This document shows positions 5,504 through 57,380 of a stretch of DNA of 64,000 bases, piece after piece. Below the pieces are notes generated by a model. It was not told the DNA's origin and did no database searches. It worked only from the letters and a program-made list of their open reading frames with translations. The position numbers were made by a program, and so were the translations under genes. Every line of letters starts with the position of its first letter. Positions within the stretch are counted from its first letter, which is position 1. The DNA comes from Jiangella mangrovi (lineage in GTDB: Bacteria; Actinomycetota; Actinomycetes; Jiangellales; Jiangellaceae): positions 1,240,001 through 1,304,000 of the forward strand of contig NZ_JACHMM010000001.1 of the NCBI RefSeq assembly GCF_014204975.1. The letters are read 5' to 3'.

Positions 5504-5788
5504 TCAGCCGCCGGCGACCGCCGGGATGACGGAGATCTTCGCGCCCGACGGCGTGGGCGTCTGCAGGCCCGACGCGAACCGGACGTCGTCCTCGTTCACG
5601 TAGACGTTGACGAACCGGCGGATCTGGCCGGTGTCGTCGAGCACGCGCGCGCCGATGCCCGGGTAGGCGGCGTCCAGCGCCCCCAGCACGTCACTGAGGG
5701 TGGCGCCGTCGGGCACCTCGACGGTGACGTCGGACTCGCCCTTGGTGTAGGTGCGCAGGATGGTCGGGACTCGTACGGCGACGCTCAT
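5504..5788 (-). CDS. MoaD/ThiS-family ubiquitin-like sulfur carrier protein
   Basis: 94 aa with a beta-grasp pattern and the diagnostic C-terminal Gly-Gly (ISVIPAVAGG). In this family an E1-like enzyme adenylates the C-terminus, which is then made a thiocarboxylate to donate sulfur. The gene starts 2 nt after the threonine synthase stop and is co-transcribed with it. The closest known analogue may be CysO of mycobacteria, which feeds sulfur to cysteine synthesis from O-phosphoserine, but no CysM or Mec-type protease gene lies here. Molybdopterin or thiamine genes are also absent, so the acceptor pathway is open. Confidence 0.85.
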   Translation of the reverse strand: MSVAVRVPTILRTYTKGESDVTVEVPDGATLSDVLGALDAAYPGIGARVLDDTGQIRRFVNVYVNEDDVRFASGLQTPTPSGAKISVIPAVAGG

Positions 5789-5790
5789 GT

Positions 5791-7038
5791 TCAGCCTCCG
5801 TTGACGAGGCTGTGGAACGCCTCGGTAGTAGGTGCGATGGTGCCGGCGGGGCCGACCACGGACGAGACGGCGTCGAGGGTCTTGAGCCCGTCGCCGGTGT
5901 TGAAGATGACGGTCTCGGCGTCGGGGTCGAGCTTGCCGTCACGCAGCAGCTTGGCCAGGACGGCGACGGTGACCCCGCCGGCGGTCTCGGCGAAGATGCC
6001 CTCGGTGCGGGCCAGCAGCCGGATGCCCTCGACGACCTCGTCGTCGCTGACGTCGTCGACCGCGCCGCCGGTGCGCCGCGCGACGTCGAGCACGTACGGC
6101 CCGTCCGCCGGGTTGCCGATGGCCAGCGACTTCGCGATGGTGTCGGGCCGGACCGGCCGCACCACGTCGTGGCCCTCCTTGAACGCCGTCGAGACCGGAG
6201 AGCACCCCGTCGCCTGGGCGCCGAAGATGGCCGGCGCGTCGCCCTCGACCAGGCCGAGCTGCACCAGCTCGCGGAACGCCTTGTCGACCTTGGTCAGCTG
6301 CGAGCCGCTGGCGACCGGGATGACGACCTGCTTCGGCAGCCGCCAGCCGAGCTGCTCGGTGGTCTCGTAGCCGAGCGTCTTCGAGCCCTCGGCGTAGTAG
6401 GGCCGCACGTTGACGTTGACGAACGCCCAGTCGTCGTGCTCGCCGGCCAGCTCCGACGCGAGCCGGTTGACGTCGTCGTAGTTGCCCTCGACGGCGACCA
6501 GCGTGGTCCCGTAGACGGCGCTCGTCACGATCTTCGGCAGCTCGAGGTTGCTGGGGATGAACACGTAGCTGGTGATGCCGGCCCGGGCCGCCGCCGCGGC
6601 GACCGCGTTGGCGAGGTTGCCCGTGGACGGGCAGGCCAGGACCGTGAAGCCCAGCTCGCGCGCCGCCGCCAGCGCGACGGCCACCACGCGGTCCTTGAAC
6701 GAGTGCGTGGGGTTGGCGGCGTCGTTCTTGATCCAGAGATCCTTGATGCCGAGCTCGCGGGCGAGGTTGTTCGCGCGGACCAGCGGGGTGAACCCCGGGT
6801 CGGTGTTCGGGATGTCGGCGACGTTCTCGGGCACCGGCAGCAGGTCGCGGTAGCGCCAGATGGACCGCGGGCCGCTCTCGATGCGCTCGCGCGTGATGGT
6901 GCCGAAGTCGTAGGCCACCTCGAGCGGCCCGAAGCACTCGAGACACGCGTAGTAGGGCCCGAGCTCGACGGTGGTGCCGCACTCACGACATGAAAGATGC
7001 GTGGCGCGCCCCAAGGAGGTGGTGCTGGTGACGGTCAT
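5791..7038 (-). CDS. thrC: Threonine synthase
   Basis: 415 aa, PLP-dependent; converts O-phosphohomoserine to threonine. Lys115 in NPTHSFKDR is the predicted PLP Schiff-base lysine, and a glycine-rich phosphate-binding segment, CPSTGNLANAVAAAAA, follows. The N-terminus holds four Cys (17, 20, 32, 35) spaced CxxC...CxxC, a zinc-ribbon-like element seen in many class II actinobacterial and archaeal enzymes. The gene is first in a two-gene operon with the sulfur carrier. The 220 nt upstream show no riboswitch or attenuator that I can recognise. Confidence 0.93.
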   Translation of the reverse strand: MTVTSTTSLGRATHLSCRECGTTVELGPYYACLECFGPLEVAYDFGTITRERIESGPRSIWRYRDLLPVPENVADIPNTDPGFTPLVRANNLARELGIKDLWIKNDAANPTHSFKDRVVAVALAAARELGFTVLACPSTGNLANAVAAAAARAGITSYVFIPSNLELPKIVTSAVYGTTLVAVEGNYDDVNRLASELAGEHDDWAFVNVNVRPYYAEGSKTLGYETTEQLGWRLPKQVVIPVASGSQLTKVDKAFRELVQLGLVEGDAPAIFGAQATGCSPVSTAFKEGHDVVRPVRPDTIAKSLAIGNPADGPYVLDVARRTGGAVDDVSDDEVVEGIRLLARTEGIFAETAGGVTVAVLAKLLRDGKLDPDAETVIFNTGDGLKTLDAVSSVVGPAGTIAPTTEAFHSLVNGG

Positions 7039-7259
7039 GCTGCTGCGGATCCCTTCTCATCTCTCCCACTCGGGTGAGCGGGCCGGAATTGGCACCGTCG
7101 TCGCGCGGGTCGGCGCGGACGGTTGCCGGAGCTTCGACGGGCCGGTCCCTCGGCTCCTCTGGATGAGGACAACTGATGGTCACACTACGTGGCACGTTTG
7201 GATCCAGACAGGACGAGTCCGCGATACGAGACAAATCTGTATCGCATCGTGGATGGTCG

Positions 7260-7455
7260 TCACTCGAGTGGGCGACGCCGCACGTGCTCTGGCCCGGCGA
7301 CGACTCGGACCTCGAGCTCACGCATCCGGGCCGCTTGGGCAAGGTACTCGCGGATCGCGATCAGCGCCTCTTCCTCGGGCGATCGACCCGAACGTTCGGC
7401 AAGGGCGCTGTAGCGCCGCAACCTCCTCGTCGGTGAGGGTGATGGAGAGCTCCAC
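7260..7455 (-). pseudogene. Frameshifted ribbon-helix-helix (antitoxin-like) gene
   Basis: A GTG at 7455 opens VELSITLTDEEVAALQR, a typical start of a CopG/RHH DNA-binding protein. The natural continuation, RYSALAERSGRSPEEEAL and IAIREYLAQAARM, is in another frame that ends at 7260. The frames join at GCGCTACAGCGC. Restoring one extra copy of an 8-bp direct repeat (CGCTACAG) there would give VAALQRYSALAERSG in one frame, so loss of one repeat copy explains the break. No toxin gene follows towards thrC. It could instead be expressed from the second frame alone, but that frame lacks the N-terminal strand. Confidence 0.5.
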
Positions 7456-7606
7456 CTCGTGATGGTGGCAGCGCCGCCGGGGTTCGCGCCACTCGCGGAG
7501 CGGCGCCTCGCGAGCGCCTTGGCACGGCTGGCCACCCTGGAGATGGGACGAAACGGACACCCGAGCGACGATGAGCCGTGCCAAGCACGTCGCCAGGCGT
7601 GCAAGG

Positions 7607-8389
7607 TCAGTCGAGCGCGGCGAGCTCGCGGAGCAGGGCCTGGACCCCGGGCGGACCGGGGACGACGACGTCGGCCGCGGCCCGCAGGTCGGCCGATGCC
7701 TCCTCGGCGTCGGAGCAGACGACCAGCCCGGCCTCGATGGCGCGCGACGACACCAGGTCGCGCACCGCCGCCACCGCGGGCAGGTCGCCCAGGTCGTCGC
7801 CGCCGTAGAGGACGGCCGCGGCGCCGGTCTCGGCGACCAGGGACCGGATGGCGACGCCCTTGTCGACCCCCACGGGCCGCAGCTCGAGCACGAACCGGCC
7901 GGGCGTGACCTGCAGGCCGGCCTCGGCGGCGACGGCGTCGGCGTGGGGGCGCAGCTCGGCCAGGGCGGCGGCGGGGTCGGCGGCGGACCGGGTGTGCAGC
8001 GCCACCGAGTGGTGCTTGTCCTCGACGGTGACCCCGGGTCGGGCTGCGGCCAGCTCCGTCGCCCGGCGGCGGGCGACGTCGACGCCGTCGTCGCTGTCGG
8101 GAGTACTCAGCGTGCCGCCGGACCAGCGCTGCAGCCCGTAGTGACCGAGCACGACCAGGCCGGGCACGTCCGCCAGCCCACCGAGGCGGACGGCGTCGGC
8201 GGCGGGCCGGCCGGTAACGACGGCGACCCGGGCCACCCGCGCGGCCACCGCCGTCAGGACCTCGGCGGTGCCGGGCAGCGCGACGGCGCTGGCGGGGTCG
8301 GGCACGATCGGCGACAGCACGCCGTCGAAGTCGAGAGCCACGAGGGTGCGGTCCAGCAGGCCGGACAGGGGTCGCAGCTCGGGCGTCAC
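7607..8389 (-). CDS. otsB: Trehalose-6-phosphate phosphatase
   Basis: 260 aa, HAD-superfamily hydrolase that removes phosphate from trehalose-6-phosphate. The nucleophile motif ALDFDGVLSPI has Asp20 and Asp22. Motif II lies in AVVTGRPAAD, and a late acidic Mg-binding motif, GGDDLGDLPA, lies at about residue 196. The start overlaps the end of the LytR_C gene by 4 nt (ATGA). The synthase otsA lies about 1 kb away on the opposite strand, so the two trehalose genes are not one operon here. Confidence 0.9.
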   Translation of the reverse strand: MTPELRPLSGLLDRTLVALDFDGVLSPIVPDPASAVALPGTAEVLTAVAARVARVAVVTGRPAADAVRLGGLADVPGLVVLGHYGLQRWSGGTLSTPDSDDGVDVARRRATELAAARPGVTVEDKHHSVALHTRSAADPAAALAELRPHADAVAAEAGLQVTPGRFVLELRPVGVDKGVAIRSLVAETGAAAVLYGGDDLGDLPAVAAVRDLVSSRAIEAGLVVCSDAEEASADLRAAADVVVPGPPGVQALLRELAALD

Positions 8390-42572: not shown

Positions 42573-43280
42573 ATGGTGACCGACGACGTTCCGACCCGAG
42601 TGTCCACCCGGCGTGAATGGCCGTGGTGGGCTCCGTCGGTGTCGGCCGGCCTGGTCAGCGCCGCCCTGCTCGGCCTCATGACCTGGCAGGTCCTCGAACG
42701 CGGCTGGTTCATCGCCTGGGACTGGAGTTTCCACGCCCACGTCGACGTCCGCCAGCCCGACGGCATCACCAAGACCCTGCTCGACGCCCTGGCCAGCCTC
42801 GGCGGGCAGCGCCTCTACACCCTGCCCATCATCGCCGCCGTCGGCCTGTACGTCGCGTACCAGCAGCGCCGGGTCCGCGTCCTGGTCGCCATCGTGGCCG
42901 GGCTGGCCACCGTCCTGTTCATCGGCTACTGGATCAAGTTCGGGCTGGGGCGCACACCGCCGGCCAGCGGCCAGGACGTCCTGCACGGCGTCGGCCAGGC
43001 GTTCCCGTCCGGGCACACCGCCAACGCCACGCTCACCTGGTTCCTGCTGGTCGTGGTGCTGTTCGGCGCGCGGGGGCTGAAGCCCGACCGCGTCCGCTTC
43101 CGCCGCTACCTCTGGGTGGCCGCGGCCGGGGTGCTGGTCACCGGGTTCCTCATGACCGCCCTCGACTACCACTGGCTCAGCGACATCCCCGGCGGCTTCG
43201 CGCTGGGGCTGCTGGCGCTCATGGTGTCGGTGACGGTGCTGAGGGCGCCGGCCGTGCGCTGGCCCCGCCGGCGGGGATGA
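42573..43280 (+). CDS. PAP2-superfamily membrane phosphatase
   Basis: 235 aa with about six helices. The three PAP2 motifs are present: [11 protein letters not shown] (motif 1), [13 protein letters not shown] (motif 2) and [11 protein letters not shown] (motif 3 with the catalytic His). Such enzymes dephosphorylate lipid phosphates, for example phosphatidate or undecaprenyl pyrophosphate. Substrate unknown. Its last 62 nt overlap the aldo/keto reductase gene on the other strand. Confidence 0.88.
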
Positions 43281-44211
43281 GCCCGCGCTCCTCGAGGTCG
43301 GCCCACAGCCGCTCGGGGACGGCGGTGTCGAGCCGGACCGCGTTCTGCGCGGCCTCGGCGGGGCTGCGCATGCCGACGACGGCGGAGGCGACGAGCGGGT
43401 GGCGCAGCGGGTAGTGCAGCGCGGCCTGCGGGAGGGTGACGCCGTGGTGCGCGCAGACGGCGGCCAGCTCGCGGGCCCGGTCGAGGATGCGCGGCGGGAC
43501 TGGTCCGTACTCGTACGTGCCGCCCGGGTCCGGGACGTCGGTGGCCAGCAGGCCGGAGTTGTAGATGCCGGCGGCGACGACGGCGACAGCTGCGGTCTCG
43601 CAGGCGGGGAAGAGCTCGTCGAGCGCAGGCTGCTCGAGGAGGGTGAAACGGCCGGCGACCATGACGGCGTCCAGGCCACCGTTGTCGACGAGGGTGGTGA
43701 GGGCTGCCGCGTCCTTCGAGCCGACCCCGACGGCGGTGATGGCGCCCTCGTCGCGCAGCTCGATCAGCGCGGGGATCGCGGTAGCCAGGGCGTCGGGCAT
43801 GCGGTCCTCGGGGTCGTGCAGGTAGAGCAGGTCGACCCGGTCCAGGCCGAGGCGGGTGAGGGAGTCGTCGAGGCTGCGCCGGATGCCGTCGCGGGTGTAG
43901 TCCCAGACGCGGCGGTGTGTGGCCGGGTTGGCGAACCCGTCGTCGACGTCGGTCCGGCCCGAGTCGTCGGGGACGAGCAGCCGCCCGGCCTTGGTCGACA
44001 CCAGGTACTCGTGGCGCGGCCGGCCGGCGAGCGCACGGCCGAGACGCCGTTCGGAGAGGCCGAGGCCGTAGTGGGGTGCGGTGTCGAAGTAGCGCACCCC
44101 CGCATCCCAGGCCGCATCGACGGTCGCGGCCGCGGTGTCGTCGTCGACCGGCGTGTAGAGGCCGGCGATCGGTGCGGCGCCGAAGCCCAAGCGGCTGAGC
44201 GTCAGCGCCAC
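43219..44211 (-). CDS. Aldo/keto reductase, probable L-fucose/aldose dehydrogenase
   Basis: 330 aa. AKR active-site residues: Asp and Tyr in [15 protein letters not shown], Lys in YLVSTKAGR, His in [10 protein letters not shown]. The N-terminus [19 protein letters not shown] resembles D-threo-aldose 1-dehydrogenase (L-fucose dehydrogenase) and pyridoxal 4-dehydrogenase-like AKRs. It overlaps the fuconate dehydratase gene by 10 nt and should act before it, oxidising L-fucose to the lactone. A lactonase is not in the window. The substrate is inferred from context. Confidence 0.8.
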
Positions 44212-45497
44212 ACGGCACCGTCCGGGAACCGGTGCGCCTCGATGGAGGGGACCAGGATCTCCGTGCCCGCTCCGGGCTTCTCCGGCGCGAGGTAGCGGCC
44301 GTTCTCGATGCGGACGGGGTCGGCGAAGTGTTCGTGCAGGTGGTCGACGTACTCGATGACCCGGTCGTCGAGCGACCCGCTCACCGCGACGTAGTCGGCC
44401 ATCGCGAGATGCTGCACCACCTCACACAGCCCGACCCCGCCAGCGTGCGGGCAGACCGGCACGCCGAACTTGGCCGCGAGCAGCAGAATCGCCAGGTTCT
44501 CGTTCACCCCGCCGACCCGGGTCGCGTCGATCTGCACGAACTGCGCCGCCCCGGCCTGCAGCAACTGCTTGAACACCACCCGGTTCGCCACGTGCTCACC
44601 CGTCGCCACCCGCACCGGCGCGATCCGCTGCGCGATCGCCGCGTGCCCGAGCACGTCGTCGGGGCTGGTCGGCTCCTCGACCCACCACGGATCGAACGGC
44701 GCCAGCTCCTTCACCCACCGCACCGCCTCGTCCACGCCCCAGCGCTGGTTGGCGTCGATCGCGATGCGGACGTCCGGCCCGCAGATGTCGCGGGCGATCC
44801 CCAGCCGGCGGACGTCGTCGTCGAGGTCACCGCCGACCTTCAGCTTGATCTGCGTGAACCCGGCCGCCAGCGCCTCACGCGTGAGCCGGGCGAGCTTGGC
44901 GTCGTCGTAGCCCAGCCAGCCCGGCGTCGTCGTGTACGCGGGGTAGCCCTCGGCGACCAGCCGGGCCGCCCGCTCGGCCTTCCCCGGCTCCGCGGCCTGC
45001 AGCAGGTGCAGCGCCTCGATGGGATCGAGCACGTCGGTGAGGTAGCGGAAGTCGACCAGGTCGACGATCTGCTCGGGCGAGAGGTCGGACAGGAGGCGCC
45101 ACAGCGGCACGCCGACCCGCTTCGCCTTCAGGTCCCACAGCGCGTTCACGACCGCGCCGATCGCCATGTGCATGACGCCCTTCTCCGGCCCCAGCCAGCG
45201 CAGCTGCGAGTCGTGCACGAGCCGGCGCCAGGTGCTGCCGAAGTCGTCCAGCAGCGGCTCCAGCTGGCAGCCCACCAGCATCGGCCGCAGCGCGTCGATG
45301 GCCGCGACCTGCACGTCGTTGCCCCGGCCGATGGTGAACACGAACCCGTGCCCGGCCGGGCCGTCACCGTCGTCGGTCCGCACGACCACGTACGCCGCCG
45401 AGTAGTCCGGATCCGGGTTCATGGCATCGGACCCGTCCAGGAAGCGCGACGTCGGGAAGCGCAGGTCGAACGTCTCGAGAGCGGTGATCTGGCTCAT
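44202..45497 (-). CDS. L-fuconate dehydratase (enolase superfamily)
   Basis: 431 aa from ATG 45497 with GAAGGG upstream; the frame to 45758 crosses the operators. Mandelate-racemase-type enolase superfamily: KxK base in [13 protein letters not shown], metal ligands Asp in [10 protein letters not shown], Glu in WVEEPTSP and Glu in VATGEHV, and the His region [16 protein letters not shown]. The N-terminus [20 protein letters not shown] is characteristic of L-fuconate dehydratases. It makes 2-keto-3-deoxy-L-fuconate. Operon with the AKR; divergent from the SDR gene; palindromic operator 35 nt upstream. Confidence 0.9.
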
Positions 45498-45531
45498 GGC
45501 AACCCTTCTGGTCCACGGCACGACGCACAGA

Positions 45532-45542
45532 ACATCGGATGT
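45532..45542. promoter_or_regulatory. Predicted FCD-regulator operator, fuconate dehydratase side
   Basis: ACATCGGATGT, a perfect 5-bp-arm palindrome with one central base, within AACATCGGATGTCT. The same 14-mer (S = C or G in the centre) is found upstream of the ABC importer operon at 57273-57286. It lies 35-45 nt upstream of the dehydratase ATG, where it could repress. Confidence 0.75.
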
Positions 45543-45596
45543 CTGTACCCACAGTGTGCCAGAAGGCACGCAAGGGGTTGTGGTCTGACCAGGGTG

Positions 45597-45607
45597 ACAT
45601 AGGATGT
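45597..45607. promoter_or_regulatory. Predicted FCD-regulator operator, SDR side
   Basis: ACATAGGATGT followed by CT differs from the site at 45532 by one base (C to A). It lies 36-46 nt upstream of the SDR ATG at 45643, so each divergent gene has its own copy. An ATG inside the site is the start of a longer but less likely reading frame. Confidence 0.6.
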
Positions 45608-45642
45608 CTCGCGATCGGACGACGAGTGAGCGGGAGCGGGCG

Positions 45643-46389
45643 ATGGGCGACTTCGACGGCCTGACGGCGGTGGTGACCGGCGGCGCGTCGGGCATCGGAC
45701 TGGCCACGGCGCAACTGCTGGCCGCATCCGGCGCGAACGTGGCCATCCTCGACCGCAAGGTCGACGACGCACCATCCGGCCTCTACGCACTCGACTGCGA
45801 CGTCACCGACTCCGACGCCGTCACCACCGCCGTGAACGCCGTCGCCGAGCACTTCGGCGGCCTCGACATCGTCGTCAACAACGCCGGCATCGGCGCCGCC
45901 GGCACCATCGCCGACAACCCCGACACCGAATGGCACCACGTCTTCGACGTCAACGTCCTCGGCATGGTCCGAGTGGCGCGCGCCGCCCTCCCCCACCTGC
46001 GCCGCTCCGAACACGCCGCCATCGTCAACGTCTGCTCCATCGCCGCCACCGCAGGCCTCCCCCAACGCGCCCTCTACTCCGCCACCAAAGGCGCCGTCCT
46101 CTCCCTCACCCAGGCCATGGCCGCCGACCACATCGGCGAGGGCATCCGCGTCAACGCCGTCAACCCCGGCACCGCCGACACCCCCTGGGTCGGCCGCCTC
46201 CTCGACGCCGCCCCCGACCCCGCCGCAGAACGCGCCGCCCTCGAAGCCCGCCAACCCACCGGCCGCCTCGTCCCGCCGGCCGACATCGCCCACGCCATCG
46301 CCTACCTCGCCGGCCCCCACTCCGGCTCCGTCACCGGCACCACCCTCGCCGTCGACGGCGGCATGCAAGGCCTGCGCCTGCGCAAATAG
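45643..46389 (+). CDS. SDR oxidoreductase, probable 2-keto-3-deoxy-L-fuconate dehydrogenase
   Basis: 248 aa from ATG 45643 with GAGCGGG upstream. Classical SDR: cofactor motif [20 protein letters not shown], catalytic Ser in NVCSIAAT and Tyr-Lys in [11 protein letters not shown], and a C-terminal [10 protein letters not shown]. An Asp after the second strand (AILDRKVDD) suggests NAD. In the Xanthomonas-type pathway this step oxidises 2-keto-3-deoxy-L-fuconate to the 2,4-diketo acid, which a hydrolase splits to pyruvate and lactate. Assignment rests on divergence from the dehydratase and a shared operator. Confidence 0.82.
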
Positions 46390-52888: not shown

Positions 52889-53566
52889 CTAGGCCGTCAG
52901 CGCCTCGCGCAGCCACTGCTCGACCCCGGCGACGTGCACCGTCGCCCAGGACCGGGCCACGTCGGGCTGGCGGGCCCGGATCGCCTCGACGATGGCGCGG
53001 TGCTCGGCCAGGGTGCGCGCCACCGCCGCCTCCTGGGTCAGGCCGCGCCAGACCCGGGCCCGGTGCGTCGGCCCGGACAGGCTCTCGACCAGCGAGCAGA
53101 GCACCGGGTTGCCGGAGCCCTCGGCGATGAGCCGGTGGAACTCGAGGTCGCTGGTGACCAGCTCCTCGACGCCGGTGTCGGGGCCAAGGGGCGCCATGAT
53201 CTGCTCGAGCTTCTGGATGGCGTCGTCGGTCATCTGCACGGCCGCCATGGCCGCGGCGGCCGGCTCGATGATGCGGCGCACCTCGAGGAAGTGCAGGACG
53301 GTGTCGTCGCGGTGGAAGTCGACGACGAACGCCATGGCGTCGAGCAGCAGGTTGGGCGACAGGCTGGTGACGTAGGTGCCGTCGCCCTGCCGCACGTCGA
53401 GCACGTGGATCAGCGACAGCGCGCGGACCGCCTCGCGCAGTGAGCTGCGCGAGAGCCCCAGCCGTTCGGCGAGGTCGGCCTCGCGCGGCAGCCGGTCGCC
53501 CGGGCTCAGCTCCCCGCTGACGATCATCTGCTTGATCTTCTCGATCGCGACGTCGGTCACTGCCAT
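52889..53566 (-). CDS. GntR/FCD-family regulator, probable controller of the fucose regulon
   Basis: 225 aa. N-terminal winged helix GELSPGDRLPREADLAERLG and SRSSLREAVRALSLI; C-terminal FCD helical bundle (about 85-220) with metal/effector-binding His and Asp residues such as DLEFHRLIAEGSGNPVL and LAEHRAIVEAIRAR. It lies 50 nt after the permease gene on the same strand but could have its own promoter. The palindrome ACATCSGATGT upstream of the importer and the fuconate genes fits the size and symmetry of FCD operators. Ligand inferred: L-fucose or a catabolic acid. Confidence 0.85.
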   Translation of the reverse strand: MAVTDVAIEKIKQMIVSGELSPGDRLPREADLAERLGLSRSSLREAVRALSLIHVLDVRQGDGTYVTSLSPNLLLDAMAFVVDFHRDDTVLHFLEVRRIIEPAAAAMAAVQMTDDAIQKLEQIMAPLGPDTGVEELVTSDLEFHRLIAEGSGNPVLCSLVESLSGPTHRARVWRGLTQEAAVARTLAEHRAIVEAIRARQPDVARSWATVHVAGVEQWLREALTA

Positions 53567-53615: not shown

Positions 53616-54644
53616 TCAATCCTGGGCCCTGCCGGTAGTGAGCCGGGCCAGCACCAGGGCGGCCAGGATGATGCCTCCGTAGATGGCCTGGATCCACTGG
53701 GCCGACACGCCGCCGAGGGTCAGGATGTTGGTCACCAGGCCCAGGACGAGCACGCCGCAGAGCGCGCCGAACACCGTCCCCTTGCCGCCGGACAGCGCCA
53801 CCCCGCCGATGACCGCGGCGGCGAACACGGTGAAGATCATGCCCTCGCCCTGTGCGGCGGCGACGGAGCCGAGCCGGCCGGTCATCAGCACGCCCGCCAG
53901 CGCCGCCAGCGTGCTGGCCGCGATGAGCGCGCCCCACACCACCCGGCCGACGCGGATTCCGCCGGCCCGGGCGGCGTCCTCGTTGCCGCCGACGGCGTAC
54001 AACGCGCGGCCGGAGCGGAACGAGCCGAGGACGACCATGCCGATGGCGAACGCGGCCGCGCAGATCCACACCGACGCCGGCAGGCCGAGCCAGCGGGTCG
54101 AGCCGAGGTAGGTGAACGACTCCGGGATGTCGAAGAGGTTCTGCCCCTCGGTGATGCCGATCTGCAGGCCGCGCAGCACGATCAGCATGCCGAGCGTGAC
54201 GATGAACGCCGACAGCCCGAACCGCACCACCAGCAGGCCGTTGAAGCAACCGATGAGCACGCCGGCCAGCAGGCAGAGCGGCAGCGCCGTCCAGGCCGGC
54301 AGCTCGGTGCCCAGGCCGTTGCTGGCCGCCGGGATGACCAGCGCGATCGCGATGGCCGGAGCCAGGCCGACGGTCGACTCCAGCGAGAGGTCCAGCCGGC
54401 CGGCGATGAGGATGAGCACCTCGGCGAGCACCAGCAGCGACAGCTCGGTCTGCTGCTGCAGCACGTTGATGAGGTTGCCGCTGGTCAGGAAGACCGGGTC
54501 GACGAGCGTCCCGATGACCAGCAGCACCACGATGGCCGGCACCAGGGCGAGGTCGCGGAGCCGGGCGAAGCGCAGCGACGGGCGCCGCGGCGTTCGCCCG
54601 CCCGGGCCGCCGGGCAGCTCGGTGGCGACGGTGGTCTCGGTCAC
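53616..54644 (-). CDS. Sugar ABC transporter permease, ribose type
   Basis: 342 aa with about 8-10 helices, RbsC/BPD_transp_2 family. Family segments: GTLVDPVFLTSGNLINVLQQ, VLILIAGRLDLSLESTVGLA, NGLLVVRFGLSAFIVTLGML, VGRVVWGALIAASTLAALAG and VFAAAVIGGVALSGGKGTVF. It forms the membrane channel of a CUT2 importer. Its start overlaps the ATPase stop by 4 nt. Confidence 0.9.
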   Translation of the reverse strand: MTETTVATELPGGPGGRTPRRPSLRFARLRDLALVPAIVVLLVIGTLVDPVFLTSGNLINVLQQQTELSLLVLAEVLILIAGRLDLSLESTVGLAPAIAIALVIPAASNGLGTELPAWTALPLCLLAGVLIGCFNGLLVVRFGLSAFIVTLGMLIVLRGLQIGITEGQNLFDIPESFTYLGSTRWLGLPASVWICAAAFAIGMVVLGSFRSGRALYAVGGNEDAARAGGIRVGRVVWGALIAASTLAALAGVLMTGRLGSVAAAQGEGMIFTVFAAAVIGGVALSGGKGTVFGALCGVLVLGLVTNILTLGGVSAQWIQAIYGGIILAALVLARLTTGRAQD

Positions 54645-56146
54645 GGTGCGACCCCTTCCGTAGCGGCGACCATCTCGTGGTCGGTCCAGCCGCGCGGCAG
54701 CTCGGTGCTGACGCGGCCGCGGAACATGACGACGACCCGGTCGCAGACGCGCAGGTCCTCGAGCTCGTCGGACACCAGCAGCACGGCCGTCCCGGCGCGG
54801 GCGGCGGCGTCGACGGTGGCCAGCAGCGACTCCTTGGCCCGCACGTCGACGCCGGCGGTCGGGTTGACCAGCACCAGCACGCGTGGGTCGGTGGCCAGGG
54901 CGCGGGCCATGACCACCTTCTGAGCGTTGCCGCCGGAGAGCCCGGCGACCGGCTGCTCCGGGCCGTCGGTCTTGATGTCCAGCTCGCCGATCATGCGCTC
55001 GGCGAACCGGCGCCGCCGGCGGGCGTCGATCCAGCCGAACCGGCCGAGCCGGTCGCCGATGGTGAGGCTGGCGTTCTCGGCCACCGACAGCAGCGGCACC
55101 AGCCCCTCGCGGTGACGGTCCTGCGGCACGTAGCCGACGCCGGCCCGCAGCGCCGCCGGGACGCTACCCGGCTTCGGCTTCCGCCCGGCCACCTCGACGG
55201 TGCCGGCCGACGGCGCGCGCAGGCCGGCCACGACCTCGGCGACCGGCGTCTTGCCGCTGCCGCCGATGCCGGTCAGGCCGACGACCTCGCCGGCCCGCAC
55301 GGTCAGGTCGACGTCCTGGCAGTGCCCGTCGACGGTGAGGCCGCGGACCACCAGGCTCTCGCCGGCGGACGACGGGAGCCCGGGCCGGGCCTCGCGCGCC
55401 GTCGACCCGGCCGCCGCCTCGCCCGTCATCGCGTCGACCAGCCCGCGGTGGGTGATGTCGGCGACCGGCGTGGTGAGCACGTGCTGCGCGTCGCGGTACA
55501 CCGTCACCGTGTGGCAGAGGCCGAAGACCTCCTCGAGGTGGTGCGAGATCATCAGGAACGTCACGCCCTGCGCCTGCAGCGCGCGGATGCGGTCGAACAG
55601 CCGCTCCACAGCCGGGCCGTCGAGCTGCGCCGTCGGCTCGTCGAGGATGACGAATCGGGCGCCGAACGACAGCGACCGCGCGATCTCGACCATCTGCCGC
55701 GCCTCGACGGACAGGTCGCGGGCGTGCGCCGCCGGGTCGACGCCGACGTCCCAGCGCTCCAGCACCTCGGCGGCGCGACGGCGCAGCGCCGGCCAGCGGA
55801 TCGGCCGGCCCCGCTCGCTCTGCCGGTCGAGGAAGAGGTTCTCGGCCACGCTGAGGTCGAGGATGATCGTCGACTTCTGGTAGACGCAGGCGACGGCCTC
55901 GCGCCAGGCATCGCGGTCGGACAGCGACGGCGCCGGGCGTCCGCCGAACGCCAGCTCGCCCTCGTCCGGCGCCTGCAGCCCGGTGAGGATCGAGACCAGC
56001 GTCGACTTGCCCGCGCCGTTGCGCCCGACGAGACCGTGGATCTCGCCGGGCGCCACGACGATGCCGGCGCCGTCCAGCGCGGTGGTCGGCCCGTACCGCT
56101 TGACCAGGCCGCGCGCCGCGACGACGGGAGTGGTGGTGGTCGTCAT
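54641..56146 (-). CDS. Sugar ABC transporter ATPase, ribose type (two ABC domains)
   Basis: 501 aa from ATG 56146. Tandem ATPase domains: the first has Walker A GRNGAGKST and a signature region LSVEARQMVEIARSL; the second has GIGGSGKTPVAEVVAG and the canonical LSGGNAQKVVMARAL. Walker B motifs are FVILDEPTAQLDG and VLVLVNPTAGVDV. In the second domain Asn-Pro replaces the usual Glu-Pro, as is common in RbsA-like proteins, whose C-terminal site is degenerate. It overlaps both neighbours by 4 nt. Confidence 0.92.
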   Translation of the reverse strand: MTTTTTPVVAARGLVKRYGPTTALDGAGIVVAPGEIHGLVGRNGAGKSTLVSILTGLQAPDEGELAFGGRPAPSLSDRDAWREAVACVYQKSTIILDLSVAENLFLDRQSERGRPIRWPALRRRAAEVLERWDVGVDPAAHARDLSVEARQMVEIARSLSFGARFVILDEPTAQLDGPAVERLFDRIRALQAQGVTFLMISHHLEEVFGLCHTVTVYRDAQHVLTTPVADITHRGLVDAMTGEAAAGSTAREARPGLPSSAGESLVVRGLTVDGHCQDVDLTVRAGEVVGLTGIGGSGKTPVAEVVAGLRAPSAGTVEVAGRKPKPGSVPAALRAGVGYVPQDRHREGLVPLLSVAENASLTIGDRLGRFGWIDARRRRRFAERMIGELDIKTDGPEQPVAGLSGGNAQKVVMARALATDPRVLVLVNPTAGVDVRAKESLLATVDAAARAGTAVLLVSDELEDLRVCDRVVVMFRGRVSTELPRGWTDHEMVAATEGVAP

Positions 56147-57222
56147 TGCGTGATCTGGTTGCCCCAGAGCTCGGGGTCGTCGACGTTCTCGATGGTCACC
56201 AGCGGGGCGGGCAGCTGGTCCTCGAGCACCCCGGGCCGCACCTCGATGATGGTGCTGTCGTGGTCGGTCGGGCCGGGCTCGAACGTCTCGCCCTCGACGG
56301 CGGCCTTCGCGTAGAACAGCGCGTACTGCGCGTAGAGGTCGGCCGGCTGCGACACCGTCGCGTCGATGTGGCCCTCGCGGATCGCCTCGAACTCCTGCGG
56401 GATGCCGTCGTTGGACACGATGGTGATGTGGTTCGGGTCGTCGGGTGGCAGCAGCTTGCCCTGGTCGCGCAGCACCTGCAGCGTCGGCGCCAGGAACACG
56501 CCGCCGGCCTGCATGTAGATGCCGTTGATGTCCGGGTGCTGGGTGAGCCGGGTCTGCAGCGCCGCGGCGGCGGCAGCGCCCTCCCACTCCGTCGGCTCCT
56601 CGAACACCTCGATGTCGGGGAAGTTCGCCGCCATGCACTCGGCGAACGCCTCGGACCGGTCGCGGCCGTTGACCGACGACAGGGCACCCTGGAACTCGAC
56701 CACCTTGCCGGTGCCGCCGAGCTGCTCGCCCAGGAACTGGCAGGCCTGCTCGCCGTAGGCGCGGTTGTCGGCCCGGACCACCATGAACACGTCGCCCTCG
56801 TCGGGGCGGGTGTCGACGGTGACGACGGGGACGCCGTCGTCGTTCAGCTGCTCGATGGTCGACGCGATGGCGCCGGTGTCCTGCGGGGCCATGACCACGG
56901 CCTCGGCGCCCTGGCTGGTCAGCGCCTGCACGTTCGCCACCAGCGCGGCGACGTCGTTCTGCGAGTTGGTGGGTTCCATGAGGTCGATGCCCAGCTCGTC
57001 GGCGAACTGCGGGACGTAGCTGGCGTAGGAGTTCCAGAAGTCGGAGTCGGAGCGGGGCAGGTCGAGGGCGATCGGGCCCACCGCGCCGTCACCGCCGCCG
57101 TCGCCGCCGGATCCGCCGTCGCCGCCCGTGCTCGCGGTGCCGCCGTCGTCGCTGCACGCGGCGAGCAGCAGGCTCGCCGCCGCCAGCGCGAGCACGACCC
57201 GGCCGGTCGTCGTGGTCCTCAT
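56143..57222 (-). CDS. Sugar ABC transporter substrate-binding lipoprotein
   Basis: 359 aa from ATG 57222, chosen because GGAGGA lies 7 nt upstream; ATG 57237 is inside that region. Lipoprotein signal TGRVVLALAAASLLLAAC with a Gly/Asp linker, then a type 1 periplasmic-binding fold (about 50-330): IALDLPRSDSDFWNSYASYV, GAEAVVMAPQDTGAIASTI and CMAANFPDIEVFEEPTEWEG. It delivers the sugar to the permease/ATPase. L-fucose is the predicted ligand because its operator matches that of the fuconate genes. Confidence 0.88.
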   Translation of the reverse strand: MRTTTTGRVVLALAAASLLLAACSDDGGTASTGGDGGSGGDGGGDGAVGPIALDLPRSDSDFWNSYASYVPQFADELGIDLMEPTNSQNDVAALVANVQALTSQGAEAVVMAPQDTGAIASTIEQLNDDGVPVVTVDTRPDEGDVFMVVRADNRAYGEQACQFLGEQLGGTGKVVEFQGALSSVNGRDRSEAFAECMAANFPDIEVFEEPTEWEGAAAAAALQTRLTQHPDINGIYMQAGGVFLAPTLQVLRDQGKLLPPDDPNHITIVSNDGIPQEFEAIREGHIDATVSQPADLYAQYALFYAKAAVEGETFEPGPTDHDSTIIEVRPGVLEDQLPAPLVTIENVDDPELWGNQITQ

Positions 57223-57273
57223 CGTCGAGTCCTCCATGAGATCGTGCCTGGCGCTCCCGGTGACATCGGCGAA

Positions 57274-57284
57274 ACATCCGATGT
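57274..57284. promoter_or_regulatory. Predicted FCD-regulator operator, ABC importer
   Basis: ACATCCGATGT, in the context AACATCCGATGTCT, is a perfect palindrome 52-62 nt upstream of the binding-protein ATG. It matches the site at 45532 at 13 of 14 positions, differing only in the central base. Confidence 0.75.
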
Positions 57285-57380
57285 CTAGCCAGGGTTGTAC
57301 CAGTCATCGCGCGCGCGTGTCCAGAGGGCCGCCACGGATCAGCTGTGCGACGGAGAACTCGTCATACGTCTGACGCGAAA

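Follow-up and report, generated by a model that had tools for sequence, protein, structure and literature searches.

A conserved palindrome as the predicted operator of a GntR/FCD regulator of L-fucose use in Jiangella and related soil actinobacteria

In the 64-kb stretch of Jiangella mangrovi DNA analysed here (the window), genes for L-fuconate breakdown and genes for a sugar importer share a short palindrome, which raises the question of whether a single regulator governs both. An earlier note on this DNA had proposed one regulator for fucose uptake and catabolism from separate loci, and genome comparison supports it: the palindrome was found before the GntR gene in other genera, before fucD, and before varied importers and GH29 and GH95 genes. 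With a probability of about 0.88, the GntR/FCD regulator encoded at 52889-53566 has ACATCSGATGT as its operator and would control three loci, most likely as a repressor released by an acid derived from L-fucose. The features concerned are listed below in window coordinates.

43219..44211, minus strand: aldo-keto reductase (AKR), probable L-fucose dehydrogenase; PF00248, role assigned from gene neighbours
44202..45497, minus strand: fucD, L-fuconate dehydratase of the enolase superfamily; best PDB match 2hne, PF13378 and PF02746
45531..45543, unstranded: predicted operator 1, AACATCGGATGTC, before fucD; exact core, 12/12 Jiangella, one of three genome core sites
45596..45608, unstranded: predicted operator 2 (weaker), GACATAGGATGTC, before the SDR gene; one core mismatch
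45600..45605, plus strand: TAGGAT within operator 2, probable -10 box of the SDR gene; invariant in 12/12 Jiangella
45643..46389, plus strand: SDR, probable 2-keto-3-deoxy-L-fuconate dehydrogenase; PF13561 and PF00106, role assigned from gene neighbours
52889..53566, minus strand: GntR/FCD regulator, predicted operator binder; PF00392 and PF07729, palindrome before homologues in 48/80 loci
53616..54644, minus strand: importer permease of CUT2 type; PF02653
54641..56152, minus strand: importer ATPase with two ABC domains; PF00005 in two stretches
56143..57222, minus strand: sugar-binding lipoprotein-like protein (SBP) of the importer; PF13407
57273..57285, unstranded: predicted operator 3, AACATCCGATGTC, before the importer genes; exact, also before the orthologous importer of Jiangella genome G008

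A letter search of the window found exact copies of AACATCSGATGTCT at 45531-45544, reading AACATCGGATGTCT, and at 57273-57286, reading AACATCCGATGTCT, which confirmed the palindrome that the earlier note had placed on the fucD side and at the importer. Its one-mismatch copy on the SDR side was also recovered, as GACATAGGATGTC at 45596-45608 rather than 45597-45609. The sites are close upstream of start codons as claimed, with gaps that differ from the 35-62 nt given: 33 nt from operator 1 to the fucD ATG (45497), 34 nt from operator 2 to the SDR ATG (45643), and 50 nt from operator 3 to the importer ATG (57222, with GGAGG upstream) or 35 nt if the in-frame upstream ATG at 57237 is taken as the importer start. 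The "two loci 7 kb apart" correspond to perfect sites separated by 11.7 kb, the SDR and GntR genes being about 6.5 kb apart. When up to three mismatches were allowed, the window held 8 matches against 3.4 expected, a number reached in 3 of 100 shuffles, so such loose matches carry little meaning.

The fucD product matched the L-fuconate dehydratase 2hne, its best PDB match, over the full length (640 bits, residues 2-430) and fell under the cutoffs of the NCBIfam models listed. The AKR and SDR genes adjoin fucD and belong to families that fit the dehydrogenases of the pathway, the substrate not being readable from the sequence; PDB matches of the SDR were generic members of its family. The CUT2 sugar importer set is complete in one run (PF13407 protein, double-domain ATPase and PF02653 permease), its substrate equally not readable, and the GntR/FCD gene said to lie beside it is the last gene of the run SBP-ATPase-permease-GntR.

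Scanning the genome, a single contig of 7,162,500 bases (7.16 Mb), gave no exact match to RACATCSGATGTYT beyond the two window sites. The core ACATCSGATGT occurred at three sites, before fucD, before the importer and, 3.3 Mb away at genome position 4,619,236, before a GH95 gene. Its likely start is about 30 nt from the site, whereas its longest open frame starts upstream and would contain the site. The product of this gene is predicted to be secreted and carries a catalytic domain of GH95, an alpha-L-fucosidase family, together with a galactose-binding domain. Since the third site fronts the GH95 gene, all three of the three core sites precede genes for fucose release, uptake or breakdown. The GH95 gene has an acetyl xylan esterase gene as its divergent neighbour, and this is followed (L033:993-3441, genome about 4615.2-4617.6 kb) by genes for a PfkB sugar kinase, a KDPG/KHG-type aldolase and an IclR regulator.

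Allowing up to two mismatches gave 50 genome matches (both strands counted). Twelve regions were inspected, one of which was the GH95 locus. The other 11 sites fell within gene calls in nine cases and were intergenic in two (L040, L042); four of the nine (L031, L032, L036, L037) were about 45 nt or less from the called start, and the true start may lie downstream of them. None of the genes at these 11 sites had a fucose-linked look. The earlier note had called for a genome scan for sites before lactonase, hydrolase or fucosidase genes; a core site was found before the fucosidase-family gene and none at a lactonase or FAH gene. Two FAH-hydrolase genes (C1:1328692-1329537 and C1:5170065-5170910), each 72% identical to the FAH of the G039 fucose cluster, are both far from the fuc genes. 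For fuconolactonase, the amidohydrolase of the G019 cluster used as query gave genome matches of only 37% and 39% identity, the latter with an in-frame stop. These points count against the regulon picture: a lactonase match of at most 39%, FAH copies that carry no core site, and an importer whose binding protein has ribose-binding proteins as its nearest PDB entries by sequence.

A 19-row alignment served to search for homologues of the GntR/FCD regulator. Of the matches listed, the best 80 loci were kept; going by record titles, they cover 24 genera, mostly of soil actinobacteria. Neighbour genes were identified by tblastn in stretches of up to 9 kb on either side. Near the GntR gene of these best 80 loci, fucD was found in 40 (39 at 45% identity or more), the SDR in 45 (some just 32-35% identical), the importer binding protein in 28 (50-78% identical), the AKR in 31, a lactonase in 20, a FAH hydrolase in 18 and a mutarotase in 15. 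Regulator, importer, SDR, fucD and AKR are adjacent in loci of Amycolatopsis, Nonomuraea, Micromonospora and Streptomyces, and the window is a split form of this actinobacterial fucose cluster.

The operator also accompanies genes that differ from genome to genome. A hand count of the 48 core sites in 22 family genomes placed 32 before fucD, importer, GH29, GH95, mutarotase or this GntR gene, several of them within the longest open frame but ahead of a likelier gene start. The remaining 16 were unlinked, including one in G011 (L181:4549), where the palindrome persists at a locus that lost its GH95 gene and no GH95 match is left; this site was counted as unlinked. For the 13-mer RACATCSGATGTY, 18 of 21 sites in these genomes were linked to the same gene set (hand count). 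The importer of the window is present in 2 of 12 Jiangella genomes (G000 and G008), with the site in each. Between permease and GntR genes, G008 carries a GH29 alpha-L-fucosidase gene with its own palindrome (L175:5694; 5676-7919); the window lacks that gene and has a permease-GntR gap of about 50 nt. In G006 it is other importers, accompanied by GH95 and GH29 genes, that have the operator upstream.

Six genomes outside the family contained 13 core sites, of which four were before GntR (G039, G060, G061, G062), three at fucose genes and six unlinked. In Microtetraspora sp. NBRC 16547 (L333) the site is flanked by a fucD-SBP-ATPase-permease run at about 170 nt and a GH95 gene at about 250 nt; in Streptomyces aurantiogriseus (L332) a GH95-like gene (41%) begins about 240 nt after it; and in G053 (L316) it is between FAH/SDR and fucD. 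G037 had unlinked sites only, and S. resistomycificus a single site, before GntR. The G037 and G053 sites were examined in 3-kb stretches.

The gene content bears on the identity of the sugar. The same regulator and operator could serve a look-alike of L-fucose, for example L-galactose or D-arabinose: L-galactose dehydrogenases are the best PDB matches of the AKR, GH95 also contains L-galactosidases, and the enzymes for fucose and its look-alikes share stereochemistry. We consider this unlikely, in view of the recurrent pairing with GH29 (Pfam Alpha_L_fucos) and GH95 and of a fucD that is closest to L-fuconate dehydratase. L-fucose is retained as the probable substrate in what follows.

Comparison within the genus and family showed how the individual sites are kept. 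All 12 of the 12 Jiangella genomes had the exact core upstream of fucD, with the 13-mer beginning 39-48 nt before the start; its central base alternates between C and G while the arms are constant. Across the family, the core preceded fucD in 19 of the 30 homologues found. Those without it were eight distant copies (55-64% identical), G018, G016 (two mismatches) and G012 (one mismatch). Among the complete family genomes with fucD, G018 alone has no better GntR match than a 32% relative, and it has no site before fucD. In G016 the GntR gene adjoins fucD and the SDR gene, yet only two-mismatch sites are found.

The SDR side is less constant. Its 11-mer core (ACATCCTATGT on the fucD strand) was kept in 7 of 12 Jiangella genomes, had one extra mismatch in two and was decayed in three. 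By alignment, TAGGAT oriented toward the SDR gene was retained in all 12, including those with decayed palindromes, and it is probably the -10 box of this gene. A strict sigma-70 consensus scan of 45400-45750 gave no promoter. The odd base of operator 2 is best read as constrained by the overlapping -10 box. Between operators 1 and 2, at 45581-45591, lies TGGTCTGACCA, a palindrome of the usual FadR/FCD type that 9 of the 12 Jiangella genomes carry without change; it is possibly a second regulator's candidate site for the SDR gene.

In the proposed mechanism, the regulator would control fucD-AKR and the divergent SDR gene, the run of CUT2 importer genes with its own gene at the end, and, 3.3 Mb away, the gene of the secreted GH95 fucosidase-family protein. 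It would most likely be a repressor occupying sites at promoters or near gene starts. Repression appears most likely because the probable -10 box falls within operator 2, operators 1 and 3 are near starts, and most FCD regulators of catabolic operons repress until an acid of the pathway relieves them. The position of sites does not by itself settle the direction, and the regulator could be an activator; this seems improbable given the site over the -10 box, the relatives' sites 12-90 nt before the GntR start and the general habit of FCD regulators. With repression as the favoured mode, the effector can be considered. D140, H144, H189 and H211 were present in 80 of 80 best homologues and invariant in the 19-row alignment; this Asp and three His presumably form the FCD metal site. 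They fit a carboxylate ligand, for which reason the FCD domain would bind L-fuconate or 2-keto-3-deoxy-L-fuconate rather than the sugar, whereupon the DNA would be released. The sequences themselves show where the sites lie, how they are conserved, which genes adjoin them and that palindrome and regulator are tied across genera; from these patterns we infer that the regulator binds the sites and represses rather than activates, what its effector is, and that the natural substrate is L-fucose.

The tie between regulator and palindrome was examined by a de novo count, in which all inverted repeats with 5-nt arms and spacers of 0-5 nt were collected from the 400 nt before the GntR gene and no motif was supplied. 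ACATC-N1-GATGT ranked first, before GntR in 48 of the 80 best loci, and the next non-overlapping repeat reached 6; with S at the centre it was found in 46 of the 80. The other 32 loci lacked this repeat within the 400 nt. It preceded GntR in 18 of 27 loci with no fucose-type gene in the stretch and in 28 of 53 loci with one, so the repeat does not simply track sugar genes. The flanks of 65 core sites, unselected in the search, were nearly fixed, giving the 15-bp A(G/T)ACATCSGATGT(C/A)T. When the same inverted-repeat count was applied to other genes of the cluster loci, the repeat ranked first before FAH (13/18), which is often the first gene of a run, and second before fucD (6/38 versus 12/38 for a TCGAG palindrome). 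It was outside the top six before SDR, SBP and AKR, as expected for genes that sit inside runs.

These counts bear on the ownership of the site. The palindrome could serve another fucose-gene regulator, e.g. of LacI type, with the GntR gene just travelling with the cluster: the site is not of the usual FadR/FCD type (as excerpts of PMC4494728 describe it), the window has no core site directly before its GntR gene, and an IclR-type regulator is encoded at the GH95 locus. Against this, the palindrome precedes GntR in 18 of the 27 loci that lack nearby fucose-type genes and is the top inverted repeat before GntR overall, and in G053, G060 and G061 the regulator lies away from the fucose genes, yet a site is found at fucD or GH95. 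We therefore regard a different owner as quite improbable, more so than a different sugar or activation. The palindrome is very probably the docking site of one regulator of L-fucose use in Jiangella and many related soil bacteria.

Abundance was tried as evidence for the core and rejected. Under a first-order model with window composition, the expected genome counts were 0.009 per strand for the 14-mer, 0.5 for the 13-mer RACATCSGATGTY and 1.5 for the 11-mer core, against 2, 2 and 3 observed. The control palindrome ATCACSGTGAT, with identical dinucleotides and equal expectation, was commoner than the core, both in the genome (9 versus 3) and in the 22 family genomes (217 versus 48), so the evidence lies in position and conservation. 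A reversed-core control with 0 matches was disregarded as unfair, since it contains CTA/TAG, taken as rare in such genomes. A chance repeat, which the commoner control might suggest, is practically discounted by conservation at fucD in 12 of 12 species and de novo recovery over 24 genera.

The regulator belongs to the FadR/FCD proteins by domain content, with PF00392 at 65 bits and PF07729 at 94 bits, both over the gathering score. For the FadR subfamily, the excerpts of PMC4494728 give a common consensus of TKGT/ACMA boxes, usually with 3 nt between GT and AC, name NanR and BioR as exceptions to it, and pair position 28 of the HTH (Arg35 of E. coli FadR) with the G/C of the operator there. 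The operator ACAT-CSG-ATGT departs from TKGT-N3-ACMA as given in that source, and that G is absent. The earlier statement that FCD regulators bind short palindromes of this type is loosely right, for a site that is atypical by the same consensus. Residue 30 of the homologues, which matches FadR Arg35, was Ala, Ser or Pro in 80 of the 80 best, whereas Arg40, Arg44 and Gly61 were present in all 80 and residue 60 was Gln in 78. Residues were matched by Table 1 of PMC4494728 (in excerpt), invariant landmarks of the 19-row alignment and comparison with a FadR sequence.

Near-sites with a GGG/CCC centre, such as GACATCCCATGTT and GACATGGGATGTC, were seen at L096, L101 and L103 beside GntR relatives about 45-48% identical, hinting, from these few loci, at a shifted operator in a distant GntR clade. 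We would give even odds to a broader reading, in which a widespread actinobacterial FCD clade changed its DNA code, with loss of the position-28 Arg, a shift from TKGT-N3-ACMA to ACAT-CSG-ATGT and a roughly 47% relative that seemingly pairs with ACAT-GGG-ATGT, and in which the constant regulator-operator pair recruits non-orthologous importers and fucosidases. If so, operator sites alone could reveal unknown fucose importers and fucosidases in Streptomyces and relatives.

Among known systems, members of the FadR subfamily (e.g. LldR, UxuR, ExuR and DgoR) have the same PF00392 and PF07729 make-up and likewise have palindromic sites near where catabolic and transport genes start. The arrangement in which each of two divergent genes has its own site close by recalls the double sites in excerpts of PMC4494728; the operator, ACAT-CSG-ATGT instead of TKGT-N3-ACMA, and the absence of the position-28 Arg from all 80 best homologues set the present regulator apart. 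The window shares fucD and, going by gene neighbours, probably the SDR and a sugar dehydrogenase with the oxidative L-fucose pathway of Xanthomonas campestris, and other actinobacterial clusters also share its FAH hydrolase, lactonase and mutarotase homologues. Unlike in that pathway, the genes of this Jiangella genome are spread over three loci, no lactonase match above 39% identity was found and the FAH is unlinked. Excerpts of PMC5507952 describe a FucR predicted for Halomonas and others, which would regulate an oxidative fucose/fuconate locus and its transporters; it resembles the present regulator in being a prediction and is not actinobacterial.

In the literature, as judged by titles and abstract openings, no description of this regulator, its operator or an actinobacterial fuconate regulon was found, and the papers with literal operator strings, among the matches listed, were all unrelated by title. 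The regulon is well supported as a prediction from genome sequences. It is probably undescribed as a member of its kind and ordinary in that kind, its unusual operator being the most interesting feature. For a regulon found again and again across 24 genera, mostly of soil actinobacteria, the analysis puts a name to the regulator and its operator and proposes a likely substrate. Secreted fucosidases and sugar importers may be sought with the operator as a probe, and the regulator would offer a simple test case of how an FCD protein reads DNA without the usual arginine.
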